A stretch of DNA of 64,000 nt from Variovorax paradoxus (GTDB lineage: Bacteria > Pseudomonadota > Gammaproteobacteria > Burkholderiales > Burkholderiaceae_C). Of this stretch, positions 5,815-36,290 are shown piece after piece. A model generated the notes under the pieces. It saw nothing but the letters and a program-made list of their open reading frames with translations, was not told the origin of the DNA and ran no database searches. The position numbers and the translations under genes were made by a program. Positions within the stretch are counted from its first letter, which is position 1; every line of letters starts with the position of its first letter. The stretch lies in contig NZ_CP123990.1 of NCBI RefSeq assembly GCF_029919115.1, positions 1,488,001 through 1,552,000 on the forward strand, written 5' to 3'.

Positions 5815-6344
5815 CAGCGGCTGCGCATGTGGCGGTATGCAATGGCCTGGAACGAATCGAAATCGGGTACCTCCCACGGCGCGCGCCGCAGCTCGCGATG
5901 GCGCGCCAGCCATTCGCTCCAGCATGCGAACTGCGCGGGGGAGGGCGACACCAGAGCCCTGCGGTTTTTCATGAGCTCCAGCGCATCGAGCGGGCGCTCG
6001 CCGCGAAACACCATTACGCACAGCGCGAGCGTGGCCGAGCGGCCGATCCCGTGTTCGCAGTGAATGAGCACGCGTTCGCCGCGGTCGAGCGCGGCGCTGG
6101 CAAAGGCCACGCCTTCGTCGAGATTCTCGGCATCGACGCCGCACATGTCTTCGGTCGGCAAGTGAAGCAGCGTCATGCCGTGGCGGCGGAGCACAGCCTC
6201 GTCGTCCTTCGCTTCATTGCGCAGGTCGACCACCGCGCGGATGCGGTGCGCAGAGGCGAGTTCTTCGGCGCGCTCCGACGGAAAGCTGCCGCCCACGGCA
6301 AGCTCCTGCGTGATCCAGCTGAAGTTGGGTGTCCAGGTCGTCAT
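5814..6344 (-). CDS. Dual-specificity/tyrosine phosphatase family protein
   Basis: The 176-residue cytosolic protein carries the cysteine phosphatase signature HCEHGIGRS, with nucleophile Cys96 and phosphate-binding Arg102. Asp66, 30 residues upstream, is placed to be the general acid. It matches compact DSP-like phosphatases acting on proteins, nucleotides or phosphoinositides; the substrate is unknown. It is translationally coupled (TGATG) to the phosphoribosyltransferase/kinase-like gene. The ATG at 6344 begins at the conserved region (TTWTPNFSWITQELAVGG). In-frame ATGs at 6371 and 6383 are alternatives, and none has a clear ribosome site. Confidence 0.82.
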   Translation of the reverse strand: MTTWTPNFSWITQELAVGGSFPSERAEELASAHRIRAVVDLRNEAKDDEAVLRRHGMTLLHLPTEDMCGVDAENLDEGVAFASAALDRGERVLIHCEHGIGRSATLALCVMVFRGERPLDALELMKNRRALVSPSPAQFACWSEWLARHRELRRAPWEVPDFDSFQAIAYRHMRSR

Positions 6345-6548
6345 CGTGCGCAGTCGTCGAAAAAAGTTCATGGCAACCGGCATGCCCGGGGCGTGCCGCC
6401 TTTGTTCCGGCACACCACGTTATGTCTGCTCATCAATGCAGTCAACCATGCCCCACGGTGCTGTCCTGTTCCTTCCTCGAAAAATTTCTGCTAGGTTTTT
6501 TCAACACGCTTACACCACCACGAACATCGGCACTCATCCGTTCTCTCC

Positions 6549-21665: not shown

Positions 21666-22259
21666 TTACTTCTTGCCGGTGATTCCCTGCGCCGTCGTCA
21701 GGTGGCCGTGAACCACGGGCAGCGTCTTGGCTGCATAGGCCTTCAGGTCCGCATCGGCCGCATTGCGCTGCACCTTCTGCAGCATTTCATGCGTCTTCTT
21801 GTGGTCGGAAAGGCCCGCCATCGACATGTACTGCTTGTCGAAGGTTTCGCCGCTCAGGGCCTTCAGCGCGGTTGCGGTGGCCTTGTGCTTGGCGTCGGGC
21901 TCGGTCGGCAGCTCCACGCCTTTCTTCGATGCGATTTCCTGCAGTTCGCTCAGCGCCTTGGTGTGGTCGTCGACCATGGTCTTGCCGAACTGCTTCACCT
22001 CGTCCTTCGAGGCTTTCTCCTGGGCGAGCTTTCCGGTTTCGATCTCGGCGAGATTGGCCTGCGCAATGTCTCTCATAAAGCGCTGATCGCCCTTCGACGG
22101 CTTGCCTGCCTGGTCCGACTTGCCGGCGGCGCTGCGTGTTTCCGTGGCCTGGTCGCCGCGCGAGCTCGCGCTCTGGGCGGCGGCGGGAAGAGTCGCAGCA
22201 AATGCGCAAGCGGCCACTGCGGCCATGCCGAAACGGAAGGCAGTGCTTTGGATGGTCAT
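21666..22259 (-). CDS. DUF4142 domain exported protein
   Basis: The 197-residue protein has a signal peptide (basic start, hydrophobic core near residues 8-26, cleavage after AAAQ). The mature part has the ferritin-like helical DUF4142 pattern (FMRDIAQANLAEIETGKLAQEKASKDEVKQFGKTMVDDH). Family members are periplasmic stress-linked proteins of unclear activity. The ATG at 22259 has AAGGAG eleven bases upstream. A sigma-54-type promoter at 22325-22338 precedes it, placing it in the proposed RpoN2 regulon. Confidence 0.87.
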   Translation of the reverse strand: MTIQSTAFRFGMAAVAACAFAATLPAAAQSASSRGDQATETRSAAGKSDQAGKPSKGDQRFMRDIAQANLAEIETGKLAQEKASKDEVKQFGKTMVDDHTKALSELQEIASKKGVELPTEPDAKHKATATALKALSGETFDKQYMSMAGLSDHKKTHEMLQKVQRNAADADLKAYAAKTLPVVHGHLTTAQGITGKK

Positions 22260-22324
22260 CGATGTACTCCTTGAAGGTGATGATTTCGGGCCCGCCCGTT
22301 GGAGCGGGATCCGCTCCTTGCGGG

Positions 22325-22338
22325 GCAACGCGCATGCC
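22325..22338 (-). promoter_or_regulatory. Sigma-54 -24/-12 promoter (DUF4142 gene)
   Basis: GGCATGCGCGTTGC on the minus strand fits GG-N10-GC with TTGC at -12. The predicted start is near 22314, 55 bp before the ATG. It is back to back with the promoter at 22351-22364. Confidence 0.7.
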
Positions 22339-22350
22339 CGGCGCGATGCG

Positions 22351-22364
22351 GGCATGCCGCTTGC
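22351..22364 (+). promoter_or_regulatory. Sigma-54 -24/-12 promoter (gene at 22423)
   Basis: GGCATGCCGCTTGC matches the sigma-54 consensus. Transcription should start near 22376, 47 bp before the ATG at 22423. Confidence 0.7.
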
Positions 22365-22422
22365 CGCCCGCGTTTGTCCCTGTTCTTCCCTTCATTCTTT
22401 TCAACGCCCTGGACGTCCTGTC

Positions 22423-22707
22423 ATGAAAAGATCGCAATCGCGCATGGGCCATGCGAGCGAGTGCTATGAACTGCTTGAATTCCTGTCGCGCCGCCAGATG
22501 CCCGTGGTGTGCTCGGAACCCGATGACATTCACAAGATCCTTGCACTGCGCAGCGCGTCGCTGCTGCAGGCAATGACGGAGCCGACGGTGGTGTTGCGCA
22601 CCGGCGAGCGGCGGATCGAACGCGCCATCGTGACCGCGATCACCGCCGAAGGCCGCGCGGCCTGCATGATGCGCAGCGCCAATGCGCTGACGCCCGGGCG
22701 CCGCTGA
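22423..22707 (+). CDS. Hypothetical protein of the RpoN2 region
   Basis: This 94-residue soluble protein has no recognised domain. It has a helical N-terminus (HASECYELLEFLSRRQMP) and a beta-rich centre (PTVVLRTGERRIERAIVTAITAEGRAA), the latter resembling the two small hypotheticals at 22992 and 23241 in general style. The ATG at 22423 is supported by the sigma-54-type promoter 59 bp upstream. The gene is monocistronic. Confidence 0.6.
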   Translation: MKRSQSRMGHASECYELLEFLSRRQMPVVCSEPDDIHKILALRSASLLQAMTEPTVVLRTGERRIERAIVTAITAEGRAACMMRSANALTPGRR

Positions 22708-22740
22708 GGGCGCTTGCCGCCGCTTGTTGCGGCGGATGCT

Positions 22741-22995
22741 TCAGAGCTGGCCCTGGCCGTCGCCCGTGCGGTCGTGCACCCAGCGCATGGCTTGCTGCTG
22801 CGCATGGCGCAGCGCCTCTGCTTCGGTGGCGTAGGCGATCTCGTCGGTGTCGTTGGGCAGCATGGTTTCCTGGGTGGCCGTTCCCTCGCCGAGGCAGACG
22901 ACCTCGGGGCGGTACACACCCGTGGCCATGCGGCGGGCGCAGTACGCGAAGCGCCAGCCGCGGTAGAAGAATTCGTGGCGCTGCTCTTCGTTCAT
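22741..22995 (-). CDS. Hypothetical protein, end of the rpoN2 operon
   Basis: The 84-residue protein is unrecognised. It has a basic, aromatic N-terminus (FFYRGWRFAYCARRM) and an acidic helical C-terminal half (DEIAYATEAEALRHAQQQAMRWVHDR). Its start overlaps the previous gene by 4 bp, so it is translationally coupled. It is the fourth gene in line from rpoN2. Confidence 0.6.
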   Translation of the reverse strand: MNEEQRHEFFYRGWRFAYCARRMATGVYRPEVVCLGEGTATQETMLPNDTDEIAYATEAEALRHAQQQAMRWVHDRTGDGQGQL

Positions 22996-23225
22996 TGCGG
23001 GTGCTCCGCCGCGGCGGATGAATCGGCGCCGCGGATCGCGCTCCATCCGGCGGGCGTGAGCGCGCGGACTTCGCCGAACTGCCCGTCGCAAGAGTCCGGC
23101 GGATAGAAGCGCACATCCACGTGCCCGGTGGCCGCGAGCCGGCGCAGCACGCGCACCTTGGACGGCCGTGCCACGAAGATGGGAAGCCGCTTGCGGGCCA
23201 GTCTTTCGAGATAGCGGTAGGACAT
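22992..23225 (-). CDS. Hypothetical protein in the rpoN2 operon
   Basis: This 77-residue protein is basic at the N-terminus. Its C-terminal LTPAGWSAIRG resembles the LTPDGRSALG of the next-upstream small gene, so the two may share a fold. It begins 15 bp after that gene's stop, preceded by an AGAGAGGGG-type site, and overlaps the following gene by 4 bp. Confidence 0.6.
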   Translation of the reverse strand: MSYRYLERLARKRLPIFVARPSKVRVLRRLAATGHVDVRFYPPDSCDGQFGEVRALTPAGWSAIRGADSSAAAEHPQ

Positions 23226-23240
23226 GCGGTACCCCTCTCT

Positions 23241-23501
23241 TTACTGCTGCAACTGCTGCAATTGCGGAATGGCCTGCACGCCGCGTTTGAAGCTGTCCAC
23301 GGGCGCTCCGAGCGCGCTGCGTCCGTCGGGTGTCAGGGCGAGAAAGCGGCCCACCTCGCGGCCTCCGGCATCGGGCTTGAGGGTCAGCGCCGCAACCAGC
23401 CCGGCGGCCCGCAGCACCAGCAGGTTGTCGATGTCGTGGGTGTCGGTCAGCGTCGCGGGCGCGGGATGCTTTGCGAGCACACGCAGAAATTCAATGGACA
23501 T
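23241..23501 (-). CDS. Hypothetical protein downstream of rpoN2
   Basis: The 86-residue protein has a helix-strand pattern (IDNLLVLRAAGLVAALTLKPDAGGREVGRFLALTPDGRSAL) reminiscent of a small winged-helix or regulator fold, though no family is certain. It starts 17 bp after rpoN2 with a GGAG site, so it is co-transcribed. The C-terminus ends in a run of glutamines and leucines. Confidence 0.6.
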   Translation of the reverse strand: MSIEFLRVLAKHPAPATLTDTHDIDNLLVLRAAGLVAALTLKPDAGGREVGRFLALTPDGRSALGAPVDSFKRGVQAIPQLQQLQQ

Positions 23502-23518
23502 GTTTTCTCCTTTGCGGG

Positions 23519-24982
23519 CTAGGCCGCAGCTCCCAGTTCTCCCCCATGGACGCGGCGGCGCTCGAAGGGGTCGATGTTCATGCTCTGGCGGTACTTGGTG
23601 ACGGTGCGGCGCGCAATGCGAAAGCCCTGCTGCGCCAACTGGCGTGCCAGCGCCGCATCGCTTAGCGGCGCCACGGGTTTTTCGACGGCAATGAGCTCGC
23701 GGATGAGCCCCTGCAGTGCCACCGGCGCGCTCGCGCCCCCGGCGGCGTGCTCGAGCCCGCGCGAGAAGAAGTGCTGCAGTTCGAAGATGCCGACGGGCGT
23801 GGCCATGTACTTGTTGTGCACGGTGCGCGAAACGGTGGACGGATGCACGCCCACTTCTTCGGCAATTTCGCGCAGCCCGAGCGGCTTCATGGCGAGCGGG
23901 CCGTGCTCGAAGAACATCTTCTGCCGCTCGACGATGGCGCGCGCCACCTCCAGAATGGTGGATGCGCGCTGCGACACGCTGCCCACCATCCAGCGCGCTT
24001 GCTCCAGGCATTCCTTCATGGCGGCGCACTGGCCGGTGCCGTGTTTCTCGCCATGCTGCTCGAGCAGTTGCGCGTAGGCCGAGTTCACCTTCACGCGGGG
24101 CAGGGCGCTGGCGTTGAGCGAGGTCCGCCAGGTGCCGCGCACCTTCTTCACGGTCACGTCGGGTATCACGATGCGCGCCGCCGTCTCGCCGAATTGCCAG
24201 CCCGGGTGCGGGCTCAGGCGCCGGATGCAATCGATTGCGCACTGCACTTCCTGCGGCGCCGCATCGAGCGCCTTGGCCAGTTTGCCGACGTCATGAGTGG
24301 CAAGCAGGCCGATGTGCGCTTCGAGAATACGGCGCGCGAGTTGCCGGATGACTGTTCCCGATTCGTTCGCATGCGCTGGAGAAGCCTCGAGTTGCAGGCA
24401 AAGGCATTCGGCCACGCTGCGCGCCGCCACGCCCGCAGGGTCGAGCGCCTGCACGCGGCGCAGGGCCGTGCGCAGTTCGCGCTCCGCATCCGCGCCGGTT
24501 TCTCCGAGCGCGGAGCCCACCTCTTCGAGCGAAATGCGAAGGTAGCCGTCGTCGTCCAACGCCTCGACCACGGCGCGCGCAAATGCCATTTCGCGCGCGG
24601 AAATGCGCAGTACGCCAAGTTGCCCGTGCAGGTGGGCGCGCAGCGAATCCGGCAGCGGCACGCGCTGCATCAGGTCGAAGCTCTCGTCATGCGACAGGTG
24701 CCTGTCGCCCGAGGCCGGGGCCGCGGTAATCCTGTCGAAGGCCGCCGCCGCTTCGATGTCGGCGGCAGCATCGGCCGCGGCCGGCACGGTTTCGGCGATG
24801 GATTCGTGGCCTTCTTGCGCGAGCGGTTCAATCTCGAGAAACGGGTTCAGCTCGGCTGCGTCGCGCAGCGCCTGCGCGTACTCCTGCGAGGACATCTGCA
24901 GCAGCCGAACGGCCTGCTGCAGGCGGGGGGAAAAGATAGGGGCCTGCACCTGGCGGGCCTGCAAAACAATCGACGTGTTCAT
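23519..24982 (-). CDS. rpoN: RNA polymerase sigma-54 factor (second copy, RpoN2)
   Basis: The 487-residue sigma-54 has all regions. The Gln-rich activator-interacting region I (FSPRLQQAVRLLQMSSQEY) is followed by an Ala/Glu-rich linker and the core-binding domain. The helix-turn-helix is seen in LREIAEEVGVHPSTVSRTVHNKYMATPVGIFEL. The RpoN box ARRTVTKYR at residues 457-465 differs from canonical ARRTVAKYR by A to T, and the tail is atypical. The usual rpoN neighbours (lptB, hpf, pts genes) are absent, so this is probably a paralogue. It has its own sigma-54-type promoter and heads a four-gene operon. Confidence 0.92.
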   Translation of the reverse strand: MNTSIVLQARQVQAPIFSPRLQQAVRLLQMSSQEYAQALRDAAELNPFLEIEPLAQEGHESIAETVPAAADAAADIEAAAAFDRITAAPASGDRHLSHDESFDLMQRVPLPDSLRAHLHGQLGVLRISAREMAFARAVVEALDDDGYLRISLEEVGSALGETGADAERELRTALRRVQALDPAGVAARSVAECLCLQLEASPAHANESGTVIRQLARRILEAHIGLLATHDVGKLAKALDAAPQEVQCAIDCIRRLSPHPGWQFGETAARIVIPDVTVKKVRGTWRTSLNASALPRVKVNSAYAQLLEQHGEKHGTGQCAAMKECLEQARWMVGSVSQRASTILEVARAIVERQKMFFEHGPLAMKPLGLREIAEEVGVHPSTVSRTVHNKYMATPVGIFELQHFFSRGLEHAAGGASAPVALQGLIRELIAVEKPVAPLSDAALARQLAQQGFRIARRTVTKYRQSMNIDPFERRRVHGGELGAAA

Positions 24983-25024
24983 GTTTCTCCGTAGCGCCTC
25001 CGGTTCTCGGGGCGGGATGGCTGC

Positions 25025-25038
25025 GCAACGGTCGTGCC
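25025..25038 (-). promoter_or_regulatory. Sigma-54 -24/-12 promoter of rpoN2
   Basis: GGCACGACCGTTGC preceded by T fits TGGCACG-N4-TTGC exactly. The predicted start is near 25013, 31 bp before the rpoN2 ATG, implying autoregulation. A perfect 12-bp palindrome AAAACTAGTTTT lies at 25065-25076, about 57 bp upstream of that start, and could be an operator. Confidence 0.75.
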
Positions 25039-25195
25039 AGGGTATTTCTCGCTCGCATGGGTCGAAAACTAGTTTTAAAGTACGCATAAAAGGGTTCGCG
25101 CGCGCCTTCGGCGCCGGGGTGTTGGAAGCCTTGCGGCAAATCTTGCGGTTCTCCGGGGGCAGACAGGGGTGGGGCGTTTGTCGGAAACTCATGCA

Positions 25196-25567
25196 ATGAA
25201 AAATTCATCGGGAGACAGGGGGCAGCCCGCGGCGTGGCCGGCGCTGCTGACCGGCGCTTGCCTTGCCATTGCGGGGCTCGCGGGGCTGGGACTCGCGTTT
25301 CGGCAGAAATCCCGCACCGCACGGGCTGCGGAAGAAAAGCTGGCGCTGCATCGAGCGCGCTTGGCTCGCCAGGCACTGTGCGCTCAGCGCCTTGAACACG
25401 ATCTTCGAAGCCCGGTGGGCGCCATGGCCGTGGCCTTGGAGCTTTTGCGGACCTCCGACGACACCGACACCCAACGCGAAGCCCTGGAAGTGCTGGAGCG
25501 GCAGGTCGCGCGTATGACGTCTCTGACAGAGCAAGTGCACGAATTCGCACAGGGCTTGGACGATTGA
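25196..25567 (+). CDS. Membrane histidine-kinase-like protein lacking an ATPase domain
   Basis: The 123-residue protein has one N-terminal membrane segment (about 14-35), a basic linker, and a histidine-kinase dimerisation helix with RLEHDLRSPVGAM, in which His68 is the phosphoacceptor-like residue. The ATP-binding domain is absent, and the ORF ends normally, so this is not an obvious frameshift. It is divergent from rpoN2 and precedes the sigma-54-dependent response regulator. It may accept or remove phosphate from that regulator. Confidence 0.7.
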   Translation: MKNSSGDRGQPAAWPALLTGACLAIAGLAGLGLAFRQKSRTARAAEEKLALHRARLARQALCAQRLEHDLRSPVGAMAVALELLRTSDDTDTQREALEVLERQVARMTSLTEQVHEFAQGLDD

Positions 25568-25631
25568 ACCGTCCGGCGTTTCTTGCCGGGCGGCGCAAGA
25601 TTCGAAGTGGGACATCTACGCGCGAAAGAAA

Positions 25632-27122
<1,491 letters not shown>

Positions 27123-27403
27123 GAAGGCGCCTGCGGCTGCGCCGGCGTGTTCCGACGGGAGCATGAGGACGGACCCGCGGCGGAGGACGCGCCGCGCATT
27201 CGCGCGCGATAGCGTTCCTTCCAGCCGCGCAGCCGCAACCTGTAGGCCGCGGCGCCTGCGGGATCGAAGTCGGTTCCCAGATAATTCGCCGGGTTTTCAA
27301 GTGGATGGCAGGCGAAATAGCTGCTGAGTTCGTTCATGCGTGTCTCCGGGTGCGTGAAGGTTCTCGCTAGGCGAAAGGTCTCGCGCAAGGCGTTCACCGC
27401 CCG

Positions 27404-27417
27404 GCAAACTGCGTGCC
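27404..27417 (-). promoter_or_regulatory. Sigma-54 -24/-12 promoter (hypothetical gene at 27337)
   Basis: GGCACGCAGTTTGC on the minus strand matches the consensus. The start is predicted near 27393, 56 bp before the ATG. It is divergent from the promoter at 27437-27450, 20 bp away. Confidence 0.7.
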
Positions 27418-27436
27418 GAGGTGCCGCCGCCGGGCC

Positions 27437-27450
27437 GGTACGCCGTTTGC
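27437..27450 (+). promoter_or_regulatory. Sigma-54 -24/-12 promoter of the CheB/CheR hybrid kinase
   Basis: GGTACGCCGTTTGC matches GG-N10-GC with TTGC at -12. The start near 27462 leaves a very short leader containing AGGAG (27463-27467). Confidence 0.68.
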
Positions 27451-27475
27451 CGGAGAGCAAGTAGGAGAAAGCGCT

Positions 27476-30400
27476 TTGGATGAAATGAACCCCGACCATG
27501 CCGAGGAAGCGCTGGGCGATCAGATCGACGACGCCGTGCCGTCGCGCGGCTATCGCATGCTGCCCGTTGTCGGGCTTGGCGGCTCGGCGGGCAGCATCGA
27601 GGCGGTGGGCGAGTTCCTGGAGGGCATGCCCACCGACACGGGCATGGCCTTCGTGGTGGTGCTCTACCTGCCCGCGGCGCATGAGAACGCACTGGCGCAG
27701 GTGCTGGCGCGCTCCACCCGCATGCGGGTGGTGCCGGTCGGCGGCAGGGAGCGCATCGAGCCCGACACGGTGTATGTGGTTCCGCCCGGCAAGACGCTGC
27801 GCACCCGCGGCGAGCTCATCGAACTGGCGGCGCTTCCGCCGGGCCAGGGCCGCCACATGGCGGTCGACTTCTTCTTTCGAACGCTGGCCGATACCCACGG
27901 GCCCCACGCCATTGCGGTGGTTCTTTCGGGTGTGGACAGCGACGGCACCATCGGCGTCAAGCGGATCAAGGAGCGCGGCGGCCTGACGGTGGCGCAAGAC
28001 CCGCAGGAAACCCGCCACAACGGCATGGCGCAGTCGGCCATTGCCACCGGCATGGTCGACTGGGTGCTGCCCGTGCGCGAAATGGGCGCGCGCATTCACG
28101 CCTACTACCGCATCGAGCGGCAGCTGAAGCTGCCGCCCGAGCAGCTGCCGGACGGCGAAGACGACGCACCGCCCGCGCCCGATGTGGACGAGGCGGCCTT
28201 TCGCGAAGTGCTGGCCTTCGTGCGAAGCCGCAGCGGGCGCGATTTTGTCAACTACAAGCGGGCCACCGTGCTGCGGCGCATCGGCCGCCGCATGCAGGTA
28301 AACGGCGTGAGCGATCTTGCCGCCTACCTGGACTGCCTGCGCACGCGCCCCGGCGAGGCCGGCGCGCTGCTGCAGGACATGCTGATCAGCGTGACCAATT
28401 TCTTCCGCGACGGCGAATGCTTTTCGGCGCTGGAAGGCATGGTGCACGAGCTGTTCCGCAGCAAGACCTCGGCCGACACCATCCGCGTGTGGGTGGTGGC
28501 CTGCGCCACGGGCGAAGAGGCCTATTCGATTGCGATGCTGCTCAGCGAGCACGCCCGCATGCTGGAAAGCCCGCCGACCATCCAGATCTTTGCCACCGAC
28601 CTGGACGAGGACGCGGTGCGCGCCGCCCGTGAAGGCATCTACCCCATGGTCAGCGAGGCGGATGTGTCGGAAGAGCGGTTGCGGCGCTTCTTCATCCGCG
28701 AGCAGCGCGGCTACCGCGTGCGCCGCGAGTTGCGAGAGATGGTGCTGTTCGCGGTGCACGACGTGCTGAAGGATTCGCCGTTCTCGCGCATCGACCTGGT
28801 CACCTGCCGCAACCTGCTCATCTACCTCAACCGGGAGGCGCAGGCCCGCGTGTTCGAGACGCTGCACTTTGCGATGGTGCCCGGCGGCCGGTTGTTCATC
28901 GGCGCATCGGAGGCGGTGGACGAAGACAGCCCGCTCTTCGCTGTGCTCGACAAGAAGCACCGCATCTACGCGCACCGCCATGCGCCCAAGGCCGCGTTGC
29001 CGGTGCCCACCGGCCGCAGCAGCACCGCGCTGGCGCTGGACGCCAAGCGCGCGCTGCCCGTGATTCCAGGGGCGGCCTTTGCGCAGCTGCAACGCAGCGC
29101 AATGGCGCCGCTCTCCGATGGCCGCAGCATGACCTGGGGCGAGCTGCACCTGCGGCTGCTCGACCGGCTGGCGCCGCCTTCCATCCTGCTGGACTCGGAC
29201 CACGAGATGCTGCATATCTCGCCCGCGGCAACGCCGTTCCTGCACTTCAGCGGCGGCGAGCCGTCGCGCAACGTGCTGCGCGCCATCGTGCCTGACCTGA
29301 AGGCCGAGCTGCAGACCGCGCTTTACCACGTGAACGAAAGGCGACAGCCGGTGGAGGTGGCGCCGGTGCGCGTGCGGCTGAACCATGGCGAAGCCGAGGT
29401 TTCGCTCCATGTGATGCCGGTGGAAGAAATCGGCGGCGGCCTGCTGGTGCTGCTGCGCCAGGCCGACCCCGCGAGCGCGCGCGGCAGCATTGTGGTTCCG
29501 CGTGTGGATGCAGAGCCCCTTGCCGAGCACCTGGAGCGCGAGGTGACGCGTTTGAAGTCGCAGTTGCGCGAAACCGTGGAGCAGTACGAGACATCGACCG
29601 AGGAACTCAAGGCGAGCAACGAGGAACTGCACGCCATGAACGAAGAGCTGCATTCGGCGACCGAAGAGCTCGAGACCAGCCGCGAAGAACTGCAATCCAT
29701 CAACGAAGAGCTCACCACCGTCAACCACGAGCTCAAGAGCAAGGTGGACGACCTGGGCCAGGCCAACAGCGACATGCTGAACCTGATGGATGCGACCGCC
29801 ATAGCCACGGTGTTTCTGGACCGCGAGTTCCGCGTGACCCGCTTCACGCCCAGCGCGGTGGCCATCTTCAAGCTGATTGCCACCGACGTGGGGCGGCCGC
29901 TCTCCGACCTGACCACGCCGCTGGACTACCCGCAGCTTGCGGCGGATGCGCGCAAGGTGCTCCAGACGCTGCAGCCTTCGGAGCGGGAGGTGGGCGACGC
30001 CGCCGGCAACTGGTACCTGGCGCGCGTGCGGCCCTACCGCACCATCGAAGACCGCATTGCGGGCGTGGTGCTCACCTTCGTCGACATCACCGAGCGCAAG
30101 GAAGCGCAGGAGTCGCTGCGGCAGTCGCAGGAGCGCTTCAGCGCCATCGTCAACCAGGCCTCGGTGGGCGTGGCGCAAACCCGCCTCGACGGCGAAATTA
30201 CCTTTGCCAACACCTGCTATCACCAGCTCATGGGCTACGGCGAGAACGAACTCGCCGGCGTGAGCGCGCTCGACCTGGTGCACGCCGCCGACAAGCCGGC
30301 AATCTCGGCGCTGTTCGCGCGGCTGGCACAGCATGGCGAGCCGTTCCAGAGCGAGAGCCGCAATGTCCGCAAGGACGGCTCCTTCATCTGGCTGCACAAG

Positions 30401-32098
30401 AGCGTGACCGTGCTCACCAACGCGGGCGGCAAGCCCGACTCCGCGCTCATCGTGTGCAACGACATCAGCGAGCGCAGGGCCGCTGAAGAAGCGCTGCGCG
30501 AAAGCGAGGAGCGCTTCCGGCTGATGCTCGAAAACGCGGTCGACTACGCGATCTTCTCGGTCGACATGGAGCGCTGCGTCAAAAGCTGGAACACCGGCGC
30601 CGAGCGGCTCCTCGGCTATACCGAGGCCGAGATCCTCGGCCGTTCGGCCGACATCATCTTTACCGAGGAAGACCGCGCGGCGGGCGCCCCGCAGGAAGAG
30701 GCGCGCACCGCGCTCACCGCCGGCCGGGCGGCCGACGACCGGCTGCACCAGCGCAAGGACGGCTCTCGTTTCTGGGCCAGCGGCGCGCTCATGCCCATGC
30801 ACAACGGCGAGGGCGCGGTCATCGGCATGGTGAAGGTGCTGCGCGACCAGAGCGAGCAGCGCGCGGCGCAGCAGGAGGTGGAGCAAAGCCGCGGCGAATT
30901 GCTCGATGCGCTGCGCGCCAACGAGGCCGCGCGGCAGGCGCTCGAGGCCGCCGATGCCGCCAAGGACCGCTTTCTGGCCGTGCTTTCGCATGAACTGCGC
31001 AACCCGCTCGCATCGATCAGCGGCGCCGCCGAACTGCTGGCACCCGAGGAGCTTCCCACGCAGGAGCAGGCGCGCGCCGCGCGCGTAGTGCGGCGCCAGG
31101 CGGCGGCCATGAAGGTGCTGCTGGGCGACCTGCTCGATGTCTCCAGCCTGCGCCGGGGCCGGCTGGTGCTGCGCCGCGAGAGGGTCACGGCGCAGAGCAT
31201 CGTCGATGCGGCGCTGGAGGCCACCCGCCCGCTGATGGAGCAGGGGCGCCACAAGCTCGAACTGGACATCTTCGCCGCCGAGATTCCGCTCGACGCCGAC
31301 CCGATGCGCCTGACGCAGGTGATCTCGAACCTGCTGTCCAACGCGGCCAAGTACACGCCGGAAAGAGGCGAGATCCAACTGGCGGTGCATGCCGATGCGG
31401 ATGCCGGCCATGCGATCTTCACCGTCACGGACAACGGCATCGGCATGGACCCGGACACGGTCGACACGATGTTCGAGATGTTCACGCAGAGCGTGCACGC
31501 GCACGAGCGCTCGGCGGGCGGGCTGGGCATTGGCCTGGCGCTGGTGCGCAATATCGTCGAGCTGCATGGCGGCACGGTCACCGGCGAGAGCAGGGGGCTC
31601 GGCCATGGGAGCCGGTTCACCGTGCGTATTCCGCTTGCGGAGCCGCTTGCATCCGACACCGTGGCGGGGCACGTGAAATCCGAGCCTGGCTCGCCGGATG
31701 CTGCGTCAGAGGCCGCTCCGCAGCGCGTGCTGCTCGCGGACGACAACGTGGACGCCCTGTGGGGCATGGCGCGCATGCTGTCGATTTCCGGCTTCAGCGT
31801 CAAAACCGCCGACAACGGGGTCGATGCACTTCGGGTGGCGGAGCACTTCCGGCCCGATGCGGCCGTGCTCGACATCGGCATGCCCGGGCTCGACGGGCAC
31901 GAGGTGGCGCGCCGGATTCGCGCACAGCCCTGGGGGCGCGGCATGCTTCTTGTGGCGGCCACGGGGTGGAGCCAGCCTGAGGACAAGCTTGCCGCACTGG
32001 AGGCGGGGTTCGACGAGCACCTGGTGAAGCCGGTGGCCGCGGCAGACGTCCAGCGCCTGCTGCGGGCGCGCGACGGGGCAGCGGCGGCAAGCGGCTAA
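27476..32098 (+). CDS. CheB/CheR-PAS-histidine kinase-receiver hybrid protein
   Basis: The 1540-residue soluble protein combines a CheB methylesterase domain (Ser37; Asp in GVDSDG), a CheR methyltransferase domain (SVTNFFRD, CATGEEAYSIA, CRNLLIYL), a long coiled coil (ETSTEELKASNEELH...), several PAS domains, a histidine kinase (His near 1172, N-box NLLSNAAKYTP) and a receiver (Asp near 1466 in VLDIGMPGLDG). The catalytic His of CheB is Tyr64 here, so esterase activity is doubtful. The TTG at 27476 sits 8 bp from AGGAG, which decides the start over the ATG at 27485. No chemoreceptor gene is nearby. It is under a sigma-54-type promoter and so belongs to the stress regulon. Confidence 0.9.
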   Translation: MDEMNPDHAEEALGDQIDDAVPSRGYRMLPVVGLGGSAGSIEAVGEFLEGMPTDTGMAFVVVLYLPAAHENALAQVLARSTRMRVVPVGGRERIEPDTVYVVPPGKTLRTRGELIELAALPPGQGRHMAVDFFFRTLADTHGPHAIAVVLSGVDSDGTIGVKRIKERGGLTVAQDPQETRHNGMAQSAIATGMVDWVLPVREMGARIHAYYRIERQLKLPPEQLPDGEDDAPPAPDVDEAAFREVLAFVRSRSGRDFVNYKRATVLRRIGRRMQVNGVSDLAAYLDCLRTRPGEAGALLQDMLISVTNFFRDGECFSALEGMVHELFRSKTSADTIRVWVVACATGEEAYSIAMLLSEHARMLESPPTIQIFATDLDEDAVRAAREGIYPMVSEADVSEERLRRFFIREQRGYRVRRELREMVLFAVHDVLKDSPFSRIDLVTCRNLLIYLNREAQARVFETLHFAMVPGGRLFIGASEAVDEDSPLFAVLDKKHRIYAHRHAPKAALPVPTGRSSTALALDAKRALPVIPGAAFAQLQRSAMAPLSDGRSMTWGELHLRLLDRLAPPSILLDSDHEMLHISPAATPFLHFSGGEPSRNVLRAIVPDLKAELQTALYHVNERRQPVEVAPVRVRLNHGEAEVSLHVMPVEEIGGGLLVLLRQADPASARGSIVVPRVDAEPLAEHLEREVTRLKSQLRETVEQYETSTEELKASNEELHAMNEELHSATEELETSREELQSINEELTTVNHELKSKVDDLGQANSDMLNLMDATAIATVFLDREFRVTRFTPSAVAIFKLIATDVGRPLSDLTTPLDYPQLAADARKVLQTLQPSEREVGDAAGNWYLARVRPYRTIEDRIAGVVLTFVDITERKEAQESLRQSQERFSAIVNQASVGVAQTRLDGEITFANTCYHQLMGYGENELAGVSALDLVHAADKPAISALFARLAQHGEPFQSESRNVRKDGSFIWLHKSVTVLTNAGGKPDSALIVCNDISERRAAEEALRESEERFRLMLENAVDYAIFSVDMERCVKSWNTGAERLLGYTEAEILGRSADIIFTEEDRAAGAPQEEARTALTAGRAADDRLHQRKDGSRFWASGALMPMHNGEGAVIGMVKVLRDQSEQRAAQQEVEQSRGELLDALRANEAARQALEAADAAKDRFLAVLSHELRNPLASISGAAELLAPEELPTQEQARAARVVRRQAAAMKVLLGDLLDVSSLRRGRLVLRRERVTAQSIVDAALEATRPLMEQGRHKLELDIFAAEIPLDADPMRLTQVISNLLSNAAKYTPERGEIQLAVHADADAGHAIFTVTDNGIGMDPDTVDTMFEMFTQSVHAHERSAGGLGIGLALVRNIVELHGGTVTGESRGLGHGSRFTVRIPLAEPLASDTVAGHVKSEPGSPDAASEAAPQRVLLADDNVDALWGMARMLSISGFSVKTADNGVDALRVAEHFRPDAAVLDIGMPGLDGHEVARRIRAQPWGRGMLLVAATGWSQPEDKLAALEAGFDEHLVKPVAAADVQRLLRARDGAAAASG

Positions 32099-32125
32099 AG
32101 GGGCGACTAGCGGGCGCGCAAGCCG

Positions 32126-32139
32126 GGCACGCCGCTTGC
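32126..32139 (+). promoter_or_regulatory. Sigma-54 -24/-12 promoter of the CheB gene
   Basis: GGCACGCCGCTTGC is an exact match to the local consensus. The start near 32151 means translation must begin at the ATG at 32187 and not at the upstream in-frame TTG at 32136. Confidence 0.75.
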
Positions 32140-32186
32140 CCTGCAGGAAGACAACGTACTTATTCGTGTACTTCTGCTGCTCAGGA

Positions 32187-33197
32187 ATGCTGAACTCTGT
32201 TCCCCAAAACCAAGCCATCTTTATTGGCGCTTCCGTAGGCGGCGTCTATGCAATGCTCGATCTGGTCGCTGAATTGCCGGCCGACTTTCCCGCGCCGATT
32301 TTCTTCGTGCAGCACATCGGCGCCCACCGCAGCCACCTTGCGTCCCTGCTCAACGACCGCGGTCCGAACCGCGCCGTCGAGGCAAAGCAGGGCGACGTGG
32401 CCGCACCCGGCACCATCTACATCGCACCGCCCGACCACCACATGCTGCTCGAGGGCGGCGTGGTTCGCCTGACCCGCGGACCCAAGGAACACCATGCCCG
32501 CCCCGCCATCGACCCGTTGTTCCGTTCCGCCGCGCTGGATTGCGGCCCGCGCGCCGTTGGCGTGGTTCTTACCGGCAGGCTCGACGACGGCAGCGCCGGC
32601 CTGCGTGCCATCAAGGACTGCGGCGGCATTGCCGTCGTGCAGGACCCGGCCGAAGCGCATGAGCCCAGCATGCCGCAAAGCGCGATGGCGGCGGTGCAGG
32701 TGGACCACGTCGTCGCGTTGCGCGGCATGGGCAAGCTCCTGTTCCAGTTGGCGCAACCGAGGCCCGACCTGCCGGCCTTCGAAGCGCCTGCCGCGCTGCG
32801 CCGCGAATATGCCGTGGGTCTTGGAGACCGCACCGTGGAAAACCTGAAGGTGATCGGCGAGCCCTCCATGTTCAGCTGCCCCGACTGCGGGGGCGTGCTG
32901 TTCGAGCTGCACGACAAGCACCCGGTGCGCTACCGCTGTCACACGGGCCACGCCTTCAGCGCACGCAGTCTTGCGGCCACGCAGGAAGAGGTGACCGACG
33001 CCGCGCTGTGGACCAGCCTGCGCGCCATGCAGGAGAAGGAAGCCATGCTGCGGCGGCTGGCCGAGGTCCAGAAGGCGGACGGCGTCGGCAACGCCGAGAA
33101 CTCGCTGCGCGAAGCCGACGAGCTCGCGGCGGTGAGCGCCGCATTGCGCAAGCTCACCGTGAGAGCGCCCAGCCCGGCCAGTTTCGACGCGAGCTGA
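32187..33197 (+). CDS. CheB-type protein-glutamate methylesterase with zinc-ribbon-like tail
   Basis: This 336-residue protein has a CheB catalytic domain with Ser16 (GASVGG), His43 (FVQHIG) and Asp in TGRLDDGSAG, so the triad is complete. There is no receiver domain. The C-terminal part adds a CPDC...CHTGH cluster (FSCPDCGGVLFELHD...YRCHTGHAF) suggesting metal binding, then a helix. Such stand-alone CheB proteins accompany CheB/CheR hybrid kinases. The partner substrate is unknown as no receptor gene is seen. It has its own sigma-54-type promoter. Confidence 0.86.
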   Translation: MLNSVPQNQAIFIGASVGGVYAMLDLVAELPADFPAPIFFVQHIGAHRSHLASLLNDRGPNRAVEAKQGDVAAPGTIYIAPPDHHMLLEGGVVRLTRGPKEHHARPAIDPLFRSAALDCGPRAVGVVLTGRLDDGSAGLRAIKDCGGIAVVQDPAEAHEPSMPQSAMAAVQVDHVVALRGMGKLLFQLAQPRPDLPAFEAPAALRREYAVGLGDRTVENLKVIGEPSMFSCPDCGGVLFELHDKHPVRYRCHTGHAFSARSLAATQEEVTDAALWTSLRAMQEKEAMLRRLAEVQKADGVGNAENSLREADELAAVSAALRKLTVRAPSPASFDAS

Positions 33198-33215
33198 GCG
33201 GTTCAGGCACGCGCG

Positions 33216-34145
33216 CTACTTCTTCGGCATTGCCGGCCCGTTGGCGCCGTTGGCGCCGTCGGCCAGCGCCGGGCCTTCGCCCATGCCCAGCTCCGCGCCC
33301 GTGAGCGGATCGCCGTCGGGGCGCGACTGCGTGCGCGCCGCCATCTGCTGCAGCACCGGTGCATCCGCATCGCTGAGCTCCACCGTGGCCAGGCCGTCGC
33401 CGCCGTCCACCGGCCCCGACTCTTGCGTGACGGGCACGAAGTCCCACCGCTCGCCCTGGTTCCAGGGGCCGCGCAGGTCCGCATCGCTCTTGGACATGCG
33501 GAAGTACACGTTGGTGAAGCGCGGGTCGCCGGGCAGCTTGCCCGGCGGGAAGTTGGGCTCGATGGAATACAGCGCCTTCTCGAAAGACTTCTGGTGCGCG
33601 ATCTCGCGCGTCATCAGGAAGGTCAGCGCGTCCTTCACGCCCGGATCGTCGGTGAGGTTGATGAGGCGTTCGTACACGATCTTGGCGCGCGCCTCGGCCG
33701 CGATGTTGGAGCGCAGGTCCGCCGTGGGCTCGCCGATGGTGTCGATGTAGGCGGCCGTCCATGGCACGCCGGCCGAGTTGACCAGCGGCGGGCCGCCGCC
33801 GTAGAGCACCTGCGTGATGTGGCTGTCGTTGCCCGCGCCGGTGATGGTGCGGTACATCTCGCCTTGCTCTTCCACGCCTTCGGCCAGCCGCCCCTTCGCA
33901 CCCTTGTTGAGCATGCCGACGATGGTGCCGATGATCTCGAGGTGGCTCAGCTCTTCGGTCGAGATGTCGAACAGCATGTCCTTTCGCCCGGGGTCGTCGT
34001 CGCCGAGCGCCTGGGTGAAGTAGCGGCATGCCGCGGCCAGCTCGCCTTGCGGGCCGCCGAACTGCTCGAGCATGAGGTTGGCGAGGCCGGGATTGGTCTC
34101 GCTCACGCGTACCGTGTATTGCAGTCGCTTGTTGTGAGAAAACAT
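33216..34145 (-). CDS. Manganese catalase
   Basis: The 309-residue ferritin-like enzyme disproportionates hydrogen peroxide at a dimanganese site. The ligand helices are visible: GPQGELAAACRYFTQAL, STEELSHLEIIGTIV, AEARAKIVYERL and MTREIAHQKSFEKAL. Length and C-terminal extension are normal for the family. AAGGAG precedes the ATG at 34145. A sigma-54-type promoter lies at 34225-34238, divergent from the DUF892 gene. It fits peroxide defence in the stress region. Confidence 0.92.
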   Translation of the reverse strand: MFSHNKRLQYTVRVSETNPGLANLMLEQFGGPQGELAAACRYFTQALGDDDPGRKDMLFDISTEELSHLEIIGTIVGMLNKGAKGRLAEGVEEQGEMYRTITGAGNDSHITQVLYGGGPPLVNSAGVPWTAAYIDTIGEPTADLRSNIAAEARAKIVYERLINLTDDPGVKDALTFLMTREIAHQKSFEKALYSIEPNFPPGKLPGDPRFTNVYFRMSKSDADLRGPWNQGERWDFVPVTQESGPVDGGDGLATVELSDADAPVLQQMAARTQSRPDGDPLTGAELGMGEGPALADGANGANGPAMPKK

Positions 34146-34224
34146 GGGGACTCCTTGCGTTGGTTGGGTCTGGGTCTGTTGAACGAACGGCCGCGCCCTT
34201 CGGCACCACCGCGCTTTTCTTGCG

Positions 34225-34238
34225 GCAAGCGGCGTGCC
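34225..34238 (-). promoter_or_regulatory. Sigma-54 -24/-12 promoter of the Mn-catalase gene
   Basis: GGCACGCCGCTTGC on the minus strand is identical to the CheB gene's element. The start is near 34214, 69 bp before the ATG. The site is quasi-palindromic, so the plus strand also reads GG-N10-GC (34224-34237), but with GTGC at -12. Confidence 0.73.
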
Positions 34239-34356
34239 CCCCACGCGTGCGGCAAAGACTGACAAGGCGTTGCGAAGCAGCCTTGCTTGGCCCCTTTGCA
34301 CGCACCACAAACATCGGCCTTGTTTCTTCCACCAACTCGTTTTTTCAGGAACCAAC

Positions 34357-34854
34357 ATGCCCGTCAAAAGCCTCTCCGATCTTTTCATCCACGAGCTCTC
34401 CGACACCTACAGCGCAGAAAAGCAGATGACGCGCTCGCTGCCCAAGCTGGCCCGCGCCGCCACCGACGAGGGCCTGGCCTCGGCCTTCGAAACGCACCTG
34501 GAAGAGACGCGCGGCCAGGTCGAGCGCATCGAACAGATTGCCGAGCTGCTGCAGATCAAGATCAAGCGCATCAAGTGCGAAGGCATGGCCGGCCTGGTCG
34601 AGGAAGGCGATTCGCTGATCGATCAGATCGAGAAGGGCCCGGTGCTCGACGCCGCCTTGATCGGCGCGGCGCGCAAGGTGGAGCACTACGAGATCGCGGG
34701 CTACAACTCGCTGTGCACGCTGGCCAAGAAACTCGGGCACACAGAAGCCGTGTCGCTGCTCGAAGCCTCGCTGGCCGAGGAAACCGCCACGGACGGCAAG
34801 CTCAGCGCGCTGGCCGAGGCGCAGGCCATGGAAGAGGCCATTGCCGAGGAGTGA
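34357..34854 (+). CDS. DUF892/YciE-like ferritin-family stress protein
   Basis: This 165-residue four-helix protein has the DUF892 pattern (LFIHELSDTYSAEKQMTRSLPKLARAA, HLEETRGQVERIEQI, and a C-terminal HTEAVSLLEASLAEETATDGKL), with the Glu and His residues spaced like ferritin-like metal ligands. Relatives such as YciE are induced by osmotic and stationary stress. No clear sigma-54 promoter is seen on its strand, though the catalase element is partly symmetric. It sits between catalase and the KGG protein. Confidence 0.87.
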   Translation: MPVKSLSDLFIHELSDTYSAEKQMTRSLPKLARAATDEGLASAFETHLEETRGQVERIEQIAELLQIKIKRIKCEGMAGLVEEGDSLIDQIEKGPVLDAALIGAARKVEHYEIAGYNSLCTLAKKLGHTEAVSLLEASLAEETATDGKLSALAEAQAMEEAIAEE

Positions 34855-34896
34855 GCCAGGAGCCCGCTTTCCTGCCCGCAACCCGCCGTAGAGGCG

Positions 34897-34910
34897 GGCA
34901 CGCCGTTTGC
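34897..34910 (+). promoter_or_regulatory. Sigma-54 -24/-12 promoter of the KGG protein gene
   Basis: GGCACGCCGTTTGC matches the consensus. The predicted start is near 34922, 58 bp before the ATG at 34980. Confidence 0.73.
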
Positions 34911-34979
34911 CCCATGTGAGGTCGGCGCGCAACGGTTGCGCGCACAGGCCCGCACTGTGTTCGCGGAGCGAAGGAAAGC

Positions 34980-35198
34980 ATGTCAATGAACGATCAAGAA
35001 GGGCGCATTCGCAGCCGGCGCGGCTTTGCAGGAATGGACCCCGAACGCCAGAGAGAGATCGCCAGGAAGGGCGGGCGCACCGCCCACGAACTGGGGCTCG
35101 CCCATGAATTCACCCCCGAGGAAGCCCGCAATGCGAGGGCCAAGAGCCTGAGCGCGCGGGCGCAGGGAGCCGCCGCGGCCACGCCGCAGCAGGAGTAA
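34980..35198 (+). CDS. KGG domain stress-induced protein (GsiB/con-10-like)
   Basis: The 72-residue hydrophilic protein has the KGG repeat (GFAGMDPERQREIARKGG) and the follow-on AHELGLAHEFTPEEARNARAKS. It resembles stress or desiccation proteins of the GsiB/con-10 type, intrinsically disordered and LEA-like. AAGGA precedes the ATG at 34980. The upstream sigma-54-type promoter assigns it to the RpoN2 regulon. Confidence 0.87.
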   Translation: MSMNDQEGRIRSRRGFAGMDPERQREIARKGGRTAHELGLAHEFTPEEARNARAKSLSARAQGAAAATPQQE

Positions 35199-35224
35199 GT
35201 AGATTAGATAGCGGACCGCCGCGG

Positions 35225-35812
35225 TCAGGCGATTGCAGCGCGCAGGGCGGCGGGCTCGAAGGTCCTTGCAAGCACGGCATCGAACCCGGCGATTCCACCC
35301 TTGTCCTGCTGGTCTTGCGCCAGCGGTGAACCCCACACGGCCACCATGCGGCCTTCGAAGCCGGCGTCTCGCGCGCGCCGGCCCATCGCCAGCCCCGAGC
35401 CGGTCGAGGTCCGCACGTCGACCACCGCGATTTCAGGCGCTCGCTTCATGAGGACGTTGTAGCCGCCGTCGCTGCTTGCGGCAAGGTCGACCTTGTAGCC
35501 CGCGTCCGAAAGAAGCCCACTCAGCACCGCCAGCAGCTTGGCATCGTCCGACACCACCAGTGCTCGGCCGGGTTCGCCTGCGGCCCGCTGCGCGTGGACG
35601 ACGAGTTCGCTCATCCGGGCCGAGAGCTGGCGGACCTGCCTCGACACCACGACCGCCGCTTCGTGCAGCACGTCGTGCGGAAGTTCGACCCGGGCGAGCA
35701 CCTCGCTCGCGGACGAGATCGCGGCCAGCGCATTGCGCGCGTCGTGCACGCAGCGGCTCAGATCCTTCGAGTCGTCGACCATGGAAGATTGGGACATGTG
35801 AATCTGGAACAT
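35225..35812 (-). CDS. Histidine-helix plus receiver-like signalling protein
   Basis: The 195-residue protein joins a kinase-type dimerisation helix (CVHDARNALAAISSASEVL, His as potential phosphoacceptor) to a receiver-like domain (ALVVSDDAKLLAVL; VVDVRTSTGSG with the Asp; the usual Lys before Pro is replaced, ARTFEP). No ATPase domain is present. It recalls the small kinase-like protein at 25196. The start is uncertain: 35812 or 35797, since the predicted transcript begins near 35821. A TTG at 35884 inside the hexamer repeat is unlikely. Confidence 0.72.
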   Translation of the reverse strand: MFQIHMSQSSMVDDSKDLSRCVHDARNALAAISSASEVLARVELPHDVLHEAAVVVSRQVRQLSARMSELVVHAQRAAGEPGRALVVSDDAKLLAVLSGLLSDAGYKVDLAASSDGGYNVLMKRAPEIAVVDVRTSTGSGLAMGRRARDAGFEGRMVAVWGSPLAQDQQDKGGIAGFDAVLARTFEPAALRAAIA

Positions 35813-35832
35813 TGAAGGCGACACTTTCCATG

Positions 35833-35846
35833 GCATACGGCGTGCC
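35833..35846 (-). promoter_or_regulatory. Probable sigma-54 -24/-12 promoter
   Basis: GGCACGCCGTATGC on the minus strand matches the local consensus except ATGC for TTGC at -12. It is directly upstream of the histidine-helix/receiver gene and just downstream of the hexamer repeats. Confidence 0.6.
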
Positions 35847-35854
35847 CGGCGCGA

Positions 35855-35884
35855 GGGCAAGGGCAAGGGCAAGGGCAAGGGCAA
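35855..35884. repeat. Five tandem copies of the hexamer GGGCAA
   Basis: Five perfect GGGCAA units (35855-35884) are followed by a partial sixth. They lie immediately upstream of the -24 element of the minus-strand gene starting at 35812. Copy number could vary by slippage and shift spacing to upstream activator sites. Confidence 0.85.
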
Positions 35885-36053
35885 GGGCCGCCGCGCGTTC
35901 CGCTATTTGCCGCAAGTTTTGCCGGCACGCAAGGCTCGGTATGCGGCTTACAGCGGCCTCGGCGCCAGGACGACAAGGTGCGCCGCGGTGTCGGCCATCA
36001 TGAATCGCAAGCCCGCTGTGCAATGCCGCCGAGCAGGTATCCAGGAGTAAAGA

Positions 36054-36290
36054 ATGACCCGTCCTCCCGAACAATCGCCCGTGAACATCGACCAGAACCG
36101 CGCCGTGGGGCAAGACAGCCCTGAAGAGGGAAGCGAGATCGGCCGCGAGGCGAACAAGCGCCACGGCTATCCGGGCTCGCGCGACATCGGCACCAATGCC
36201 TCGCAAAGCATGCAGGTGGGCGAGAAGCCTCCGCCGAGAGATGCGCCAAAACCGCACAAGGGCGAAACCAATCCGGACGCGCGCCGCTAG
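36054..36290 (+). CDS. Hypothetical hydrophilic protein
   Basis: This 78-residue protein is rich in Pro, Glu, Asn and Arg and is predicted to be disordered, a composition seen in small stress proteins. No domain is recognised. An AGGAG site precedes the ATG at 36054. A weak sigma-54-like element (GGTATGCGGCTTAC, 35938-35951) lies about 103 bp upstream but lacks the -12 GC. Confidence 0.62.
   Translation: MTRPPEQSPVNIDQNRAVGQDSPEEGSEIGREANKRHGYPGSRDIGTNASQSMQVGEKPPPRDAPKPHKGETNPDARR

Follow-up and report, generated by a model that had tools for sequence, protein, structure and literature searches.

In the 64,000-nt stretch of the Variovorax paradoxus genome analysed here (the window: positions 1,488,001-1,552,000 of contig NZ_CP123990.1, assembly GCF_029919115.1, a single-contig genome of 5.81 Mb), the gene for a second sigma-54 factor, rpoN2, and that of a bacterial enhancer-binding protein (bEBP) with a GSFTGA loop lie among nine -24/-12 promoter elements, of which the one before rpoN2 differs in class from the eight others. 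We consider it probable that they form a specialised system in which the other sigma-54 of the genome, RpoN1, drives rpoN2, and RpoN2 together with the GSFTGA activator then drives stress and envelope genes from promoters carrying C at position -11. Such an order suggests that one sigma-54 switches on another, which then runs a separate stress programme. The reading draws on sequence comparisons, which show that the sites are enriched, conserved and mostly oriented toward their genes, that they fall into two promoter classes, that RpoN2 forms a distinct clade with its own RpoN box, and that it co-occurs with the activator.

A cluster of -24/-12 sites around rpoN2

An earlier, sequence-only reading of this DNA had described nine near-identical elements, correctly oriented and 9-70 bp from a start codon. 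Eight do match GGYAYG-N4-TTGC at the coordinates and strands given below, and the ninth (35833-35846, -) reads GGCACGCCGTATGC, with ATGC at -12 as described; all nine point toward their own gene and none lies inside a called gene. With GG-N10-GC, conserved flanks and an orientation upstream of genes, they belong by sequence to the -24/-12 class. The distances had to be revised: with starts of the nine genes at 22259, 22423, 24982, 27337, 27485, 32187, 34145, 34980 and 35797 they are 34-79 bp (65, 58, 42, 66, 34, 47, 79, 69 and 35), and later alternative starts preferred by a codon-usage gene caller for three genes give 79, 75 and 50 bp.

The window holds nine matches to GGYAYG-N4-TTGC against a shuffle mean of 1.16, and none of 100 shuffles reached nine. 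Since the whole genome contains just 119 matches (58 + 61; reversed-pattern control 36, 16 + 20), eight sites in 14.6 kb are far beyond chance (Poisson P of at least eight in 14,625 bp, 7e-10, at the rate of the other 111 matches). In the two divergent promoter pairs, which stand back to back, the -24 ends are just 12 bp (22338/22351) and 19 bp (27417/27437) apart, too close for the usual upstream enhancer to fit between these paired stress promoters.

Conservation was followed in 36 rpoN2 regions of about 20 kb each (729 kb in total), namely the window, 5 named Variovorax loci, another 17 from within the genus and 13 at family level; the five named Variovorax contigs carry the closest named RpoN2 relatives, at 93-70% identity. 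By the usual convention the GC is counted as -13/-12 and -11 is the base after it. The features are as follows.

21666..22259 (-): DUF4142 protein, candidate target (PF13628, E 2.8e-44); site kept in 7/10 regions with the gene
22325..22338 (-): -24/-12 site of the DUF4142 gene, GGCATGCGCGTTGC, -11 C
22351..22364 (+): -24/-12 site of the 94-aa gene, GGCATGCCGCTTGC, -11 C, back to back with the DUF4142 site
22423..22707 (+): 94-aa protein, candidate target, no Pfam/NCBIfam match; orthologues in 4/5 named Variovorax loci
23519..24982 (-): rpoN2, second sigma-54 (PF00309, PF04963, PF04552); RpoN box ARRTVTKYRQ
25025..25038 (-): -24/-12 site of rpoN2, GGCACGACCGTTGC, -26 T before, -11 G after; canonical class
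25131..25139 (no strand): enhancer-like dyad TTGCGGCAA, ~100 bp upstream of the -24 element of rpoN2
25196..25567 (+): HisKA (DHp)-only protein, candidate phosphotransfer protein (PF00512 only)
25698..27122 (+): activator (bEBP), REC-AAA+-Fis helix-turn-helix, GSFTGA loop (PF00072, PF00158, PF02954)
27092..27337 (-): 81-aa protein, candidate target, no Pfam match; site kept in 8 Variovorax regions including the window
27404..27417 (-): -24/-12 site of the 81-aa gene, GGCACGCAGTTTGC, -11 C
27437..27450 (+): -24/-12 site of the hybrid kinase gene, GGTACGCCGTTTGC, -11 C, back to back with the site of the 81-aa gene
27485..32098 (+): CheB-CheR-PAS-HisKA-HATPase-REC hybrid kinase, 1537 aa (domain search), candidate target and likely signal source
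32126..32139 (+): -24/-12 site of the cheB-like gene, GGCACGCCGCTTGC, -11 C
32187..33197 (+): CheB methylesterase-domain protein, candidate target (PF01339)
33216..34145 (-): manganese catalase, candidate target (PF05067, E 8.6e-86); site in 10/14 regions with the gene
34225..34238 (-): -24/-12 site of the Mn-catalase gene, GGCACGCCGCTTGC, -11 C
34897..34910 (+): -24/-12 site of the KGG gene, GGCACGCCGTTTGC, -11 C; kept in 10/11 regions
34980..35198 (+): KGG-repeat stress protein, candidate target (PF10685)
35225..35797 (-): histidine-helix plus receiver-like protein, candidate target (PF00072 at 28.8 bits, just below the cut-off of 30.2; helix by eye)
35833..35846 (-): -24/-12 site GGCACGCCGTATGC with ATGC, -11 C; TATGC or AATGC in 6/10 regions
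35907..35915 (no strand): enhancer-like dyad TTGCCGCAA, 64-69 bp upstream of the 35833-35846 site
6373..6386 (-): further site, GGCATGCCGGTTGC, -11 C; a dual-specificity-phosphatase-like gene (5814-6296, -) follows after 76 bp

The last of these stands 16 kb away from the cluster that had been described. A SIR2-like domain protein (PF13289; 36312-37211, -) lies at the edge of the stress cluster.

The rpoN2 promoter and its neighbours belong to two classes

The motif scan left positions -11 and -26 free, and it is there that the sites part. Across the 36 regions, -11 is C at 100 of the 103 target sites and at 1 of the 32 rpoN2 sites (G 25, A 6, C 1), while -26 is T at none of the former (0/103) and at 22 of the latter. 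Because the regions share ancestry, and two of them (L067 and L215) appear to come from one genome, unique sequences were also counted: 88/91 target sites against 1/26 rpoN2 sites have C at -11 (Fisher p 4e-21). From this split, the promoter of rpoN2 looks canonical and those of its neighbours are variants, so that nine matching promoters are too many: that of rpoN2 falls in a different class from those of the targets. As rpoN2 itself has an ordinary sigma-54 promoter, the order RpoN1, then rpoN2, then stress promoters seems likely. RpoN1, with an activator that is perhaps the bEBP of the window, would transcribe rpoN2 at its ordinary promoter (-26 T, -11 G/A), and RpoN2, which should read -11C sites better than RpoN1 does, would with the GSFTGA activator transcribe the stress and envelope genes from promoters of approximately the form SGGCAYGCCGNTTGCC.

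Elsewhere in the source genome, where 100 of the 119 motif matches were listed and 107 distinct sites could be positioned relative to genes, 5 of the 25 promoter-position sites outside the cluster have C at -11 as read from that list, among them one ahead of a DksA/TraR-type gene and another ahead of a gene like that of a dual-specificity phosphatase; the regulon is accordingly not self-contained as had been proposed. Two such sites lie at about 4,481,909 (G000:C1, L199), before the DksA/TraR zinc-finger gene, and at about 4,142,918 (G000:C1, L195), before a weakly cellulase-like gene. A genome without RpoN2 (G208, L306) has a -11C site before a larger gene whose start looks similar by eye.

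With C at -11 the element becomes GGCA-N7-TGCC, and one may wonder whether this near-dyad belongs to no promoter but is either an operator bound by some ordinary regulator or a short palindromic repeat of the dispersed kind. Two site pairs standing back to back, and the finding that 4 of the 21 inverted-repeat pairs in the cluster (I1, I6, I7, I16) are oppositely oriented site pairs, would suit such an element. The dyad, however, is not extended: -26 and -10 are complementary in 26/91 sites against 23.9 expected, and the first inner pair in 1/91. Moreover, orientation agrees with that of the gene at 73 informative unique sites and disagrees at 19, figures that become 83 and 9 after the open reading frames of missed small genes were read to correct apparent wrong-way sites, and site-to-start distances cluster (median 56 bp, quartiles 38-74, n=115). 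We rejected the operator or repeat, which we regard as very improbable, because the element is asymmetric, follows the orientation of the genes and does not extend as a dyad.

Upstream of rpoN2 itself, TTGC-N-GCAA occurs 30-200 bp from the -24 element in 17/28 non-redundant rpoN2 promoters against 5/77 others, the best of 2048 dyads tried; TTGC[CG]GCAA is found in 14/28 rpoN2 upstreams against 2/77 others, and 11 other dyads of the same composition in none of the rpoN2 upstreams. The dyad TTGCNGCAA upstream of rpoN2 is presented as a candidate activator site. A role of TTGCSGCAA as cluster-wide enhancer was rejected (4 occurrences in the window against 1.5 expected, with 8/100 shuffles reaching 4); it marks rpoN2 instead.

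RpoN2, its activator and the signalling proteins

The second sigma-54 recognised by the sequence-only reading carries all three expected domains (activator-interacting, core-binding and DNA-binding) over their cut-offs and shares 42% identity over residues 88-477 with the other RpoN of the genome, at 3.18 Mb. In a tree for which sequence was obtained from 55/59 RpoN2 sources and 24/30 class loci (the others lacking an RpoN box of the searched form), RpoN2 proteins cluster together (55/55, support 0.79) apart from RpoN1 (21/21, support 1.0). The RpoN box, ARRTVTKYRQ in RpoN2 and ARRTVAKYRE in RpoN1, separates them as well: T462 and Q466 are present in 100% of RpoN2, A462 in 100% and E466 in 95% of RpoN1. 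Further fixed or near-fixed RpoN2 differences are R408, after the helix-turn-helix, and R20, A24 and V25 in region I, where sigma-54 meets the activator loop. Two other ways of delimiting RpoN2 were set aside: the model NF009118 finds matches in Escherichia coli and Caulobacter too and exceeds its cut-off in 203/274 class genomes, and three RpoN boxes read from order-level matches below 356 bits proved to be two of RpoN1 type and one ARRTVTKYRN, so that the order-level matches were not used.

Beside rpoN2, as had also been noted, stands a REC-AAA+-Fis protein with GSFTGA, and the activators of the rpoN2 regions have GSFTGA in all 29 cases with a readable loop. Its scores stay below the NCBIfam cut-offs for AtoC (397/714 bits), NtrC (394.3/558.6), LuxO (376.5/800) and PEP_resp_reg (357.5/502.6), which sets it apart from the NtrC, AtoC, LuxO and PEP-CTERM PrsR equivalogs. 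The HisKA-only protein between the two has no ATPase domain, matches ChpT models at about 30 bits, far under their cut-offs of 225-240, shows by eye one hydrophobic N-terminal stretch and adjoins the bEBP in relatives too. The most likely mechanism would be a phosphorelay in which a stress cue would act on the hybrid kinase, whose receiver would pass the phosphoryl group to the DHp protein and thence to the activator, with RpoN2 holoenzyme then opening the -11C promoters; from gene content, one may guess at peroxide, desiccation or osmotic stress as the signal. Among the cluster proteins scanned there was no RpoS-, EcfG- or SigB-type sigma factor and no partner-switch gene.

Taken in full detail, the scheme would be a two-tier cascade in which a single promoter base serves as the code: the promoter of rpoN2 (-11 G/A, enhancer TTGCNGCAA) would be read by RpoN1; RpoN2, having a shifted RpoN box, changes in region I and a GSFTGA activator of its own, would prefer -11C; and the kinase would signal via the ATPase-less DHp protein, with the kinase gene, under the same promoters, closing the loop. 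This complete version we advance tentatively, as a possibility somewhat short of even chances.

Conservation and co-occurrence in Variovorax and its family

Of the sites in the 36 regions, 135 are in promoter position and 43 are not, against 1 and 3 for the reversed pattern; as the codon-usage gene caller misses some small genes, that of the 81-aa protein among them, promoter-position counts are lowered and apparent wrong-way sites raised. The site at rpoN2 itself is kept in 31/36 regions, that before the 94-aa orthologue in 10/14 (the ortholog cluster also contains two neighbours), that before CheB in 7/14 and that before the kinase in 8/18. In other regions, genes named by eye as CBS-domain, hemerythrin-like, BON-like and glycosyltransferase stand under such sites, and in L209, L210 and L211 there are further -11C sites, before a gene that by eye resembles cytochrome oxidase subunit I and before another one further along.

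The system may be real without being a general stress response, serving envelope remodelling or a narrow cue, with the stress genes as passengers of the island. Glycosyltransferase-like and UDP-galactopyranose-mutase-like genes (by eye) under such sites in L218 and L319 would fit, as would the link that Francke et al. draw between sigma-54 and the cell exterior (PMC3162934; here and below, statements on published work refer to excerpts of the cited papers). On the other side, the targets in the window include Mn-catalase, KGG and DUF4142 genes, a Burkholderia multivorans plasmid RpoN2 sharing the RpoN box ARRTVTKYRQ (a marker defined here, not in print) sits in an island of stress type with DUF4142, DUF892, CBS, PRC-barrel, Ku and LigD genes, and RpoN2 of B. 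pseudomallei raises catalase E (PMC4745423). We therefore judge the narrower role unlikely, yet with a real chance, and the word general in the sequence-only reading reflects gene content.

Among 100 Variovorax genomes (31 RpoN2-positive, with a best match of at least 401 bits, and 69 RpoN2-negative), 30 have both RpoN2 and the activator, scored on the best 16 candidates per genome, 1 has RpoN2 only, 6 the activator only and 63 neither (p 2e-18). Matches to GGYAYGCCGYTTGCC average 3.8 per RpoN2-positive and 1.2 per RpoN2-negative genome (p 7e-8), against 0.48 and 0.41 for the reversed control; many genome matches fall in coding sequence. One of them, GGCACGCCGCTTGCC, recurs in a conserved histidine-kinase-like coding sequence of three Variovorax genomes (L148 1502-1515, L303 7400, L307 9410) and inflates such counts. 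Mn-catalase was found in 3 of the 36 RpoN2-less Variovorax genomes searched, out of 69.

In Comamonadaceae bacterium OTU4NAUVB1 (L403, CP099607.1), a plasmid of 424 kb carries both rpoN2 and the activator. Only the last ~104 residues of an rpoN2, 78% identical, were found at G242:C11:134215-134526 (L314), with an activator elsewhere on contig C11, which may reflect decay of the module. Paralogous activators (78-80% identical) without rpoN2 occur at L309 9275-11001 and L316 9481-10899, beside genes of ~2400 aa that look by eye like nonribosomal peptide synthetases.

Discussion

Several observations weigh against a dedicated RpoN2 system. Up to 9/92 informative sites still point the wrong way after the missed-gene check, most stress promoters lack the dyad, and it shows no significant association with a nearby activator gene (17/25 vs 5/11, p 0.27). 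GSFTGA is also present in one other of the seven activators whose loops were read among the nine strong PF00158 matches of the genome (all but L404 and L408). At family level (RpoN2-positive at a best match of at least 331 bits), GGCAYGYCGNTTGCC occurs 4.1 times per genome in 33 RpoN2-positive and 0.87 times in 167 RpoN2-negative genomes, but the control pattern is also higher with RpoN2 (0.52 vs 0.19, p 0.002), and genome size or composition therefore explains part of the excess. Single loci taken one per genome were in promoter position in 2/12 RpoN2-positive and 4/18 RpoN2-negative genomes, which does not separate the groups. In the B. multivorans island, 1 of the six sites within 120 bp of annotated starts has C at -11; this base is consequently not a rule of the wider clade and belongs at most to the branch of this family. 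Furthermore, plasmid-borne rpoN2 of Ralstonia solanacearum allowed rpoN1 mutants to grow again on C4-dicarboxylates but did not do so for other compounds (PMC4676750), and an E. coli rpoN mutant could be complemented by rpoN2 of B. pseudomallei (PMC4745423), from which it follows that RpoN2 proteins can read some ordinary promoters. Finally, the activator is kept in 6/69 RpoN2-less Variovorax genomes, and three of the RpoN2-less genomes (G208, G248 and G204) keep -11C sites before 2/4 Mn-catalase genes and one KGG gene.

These last points are also those that would be expected if the sites were true sigma-54 promoters read by RpoN1 or by either factor, the activator defining the regulon and RpoN2 adding dosage only, and the kinase-DHp-activator trio in RpoN2-less G222 (L310, region seen in part) and the partial replacement of RpoN1 by RpoN2 in R. 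solanacearum (PMC4676750) can be counted on the same side. The near-absolute split at -11 and -26 between the rpoN2 promoter and its targets speaks against it, as do motif counts that track RpoN2 and an RpoN box specific to the clade. As for G208, G248 and G204, no activator was found in them at E<=1e-100 among the best 16 candidates per genome, so that loss of the whole system fits equally well; recent loss and use of the sites by RpoN1 both fit. We hold this alternative, with RpoN1 or either factor as the reader, to be fairly improbable. What stands of the sigma-54 stress regulon first proposed is the second sigma-54, the activator and the conserved, mostly correctly oriented sites before stress-type genes; dependence on RpoN2 rather than RpoN1 goes a step further and, with the three RpoN2-less Variovorax that keep sites, can be put forward only as our inference.

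The RpoN1-to-RpoN2 order proposed for Variovorax has parallels. R. solanacearum likewise has two sigma-54s (44% identical there), with a canonical site, TGGCACAGCCTTTGCA, before rpoN2, whose expression is abolished in an rpoN1 mutant (PMC4371752), and the proposed order matches this dependence. GSFTGA activators are present there too (Rsp1667 and Rsp1668), with rpoN2 (Rsp1671) among their putative targets (PMC4371752), and the two factors are just partly interchangeable (PMC4371752, PMC4676750). The comparison is one of published descriptions, and it ends at function, RpoN2 being called "enigmatic" there, with a function not known (PMC4371752); the excerpts describe no -11C promoter set or stress island (PMC4371752, PMC4676750). 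In B. pseudomallei, RpoN2 raises catalase E and a putative RpoN box precedes katE, a tie of a second sigma-54 to a catalase gene like that proposed for the window; the excerpts describe no cognate activator, promoter class or island (PMC4745423). The link of RpoN2 to catalase is thus not without precedent, and the sequence-only reading's term unusual has to be softened in this respect.

Farther afield, the Rhodobacter/Cereibacter sphaeroides paralogues RpoN1-4 resemble our case in being paired with their own activators (NifA, FleQ and AprX, the latter REC-type), and RpoN1 and RpoN2 promoters are distinguished there partly at -11; they differ in being alphaproteobacterial and in serving nitrogen fixation, flagella and xrpA (PMC3162934, PMC11999139). 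RpoNp of Bradyrhizobium DOA9 is an accessory sigma-54 linked to stress adaptation, but a megaplasmid copy with 22 predicted targets and, in the excerpts, neither this gene set nor this promoter mark (PMC13207237). The PrsK-PrsR/RpoN system of PEP-CTERM proteins shares the REC-type activator and several rpoN copies (four in Aquincola RN12), from which the window's activator is separated by its PEP_resp_reg score, and pepA is RpoN1-dependent there (PMC9850573). Accessory sigma-54s, discrimination at -11, RpoN1-dependent rpoN2 and the RpoN2-catalase link are therefore already known in other bacteria. A literature search, mostly without subscription papers, found no description of this regulon, promoter class or signalling trio, and it is the regulon, the -11C promoter class and the kinase-DHp-activator trio that we present as new, as candidates.

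A second sigma-54 was called enigmatic in Ralstonia (PMC4371752, in the excerpts); for a second sigma-54 of the same order there is now a concrete and testable candidate regulon, with a partner activator and a promoter mark, which would tie it to stress-type genes in soil bacteria. If the reading is true, Variovorax would be a clear example from nature in which one base of the promoter and a few residues of the protein keep two sigma-54 factors apart.

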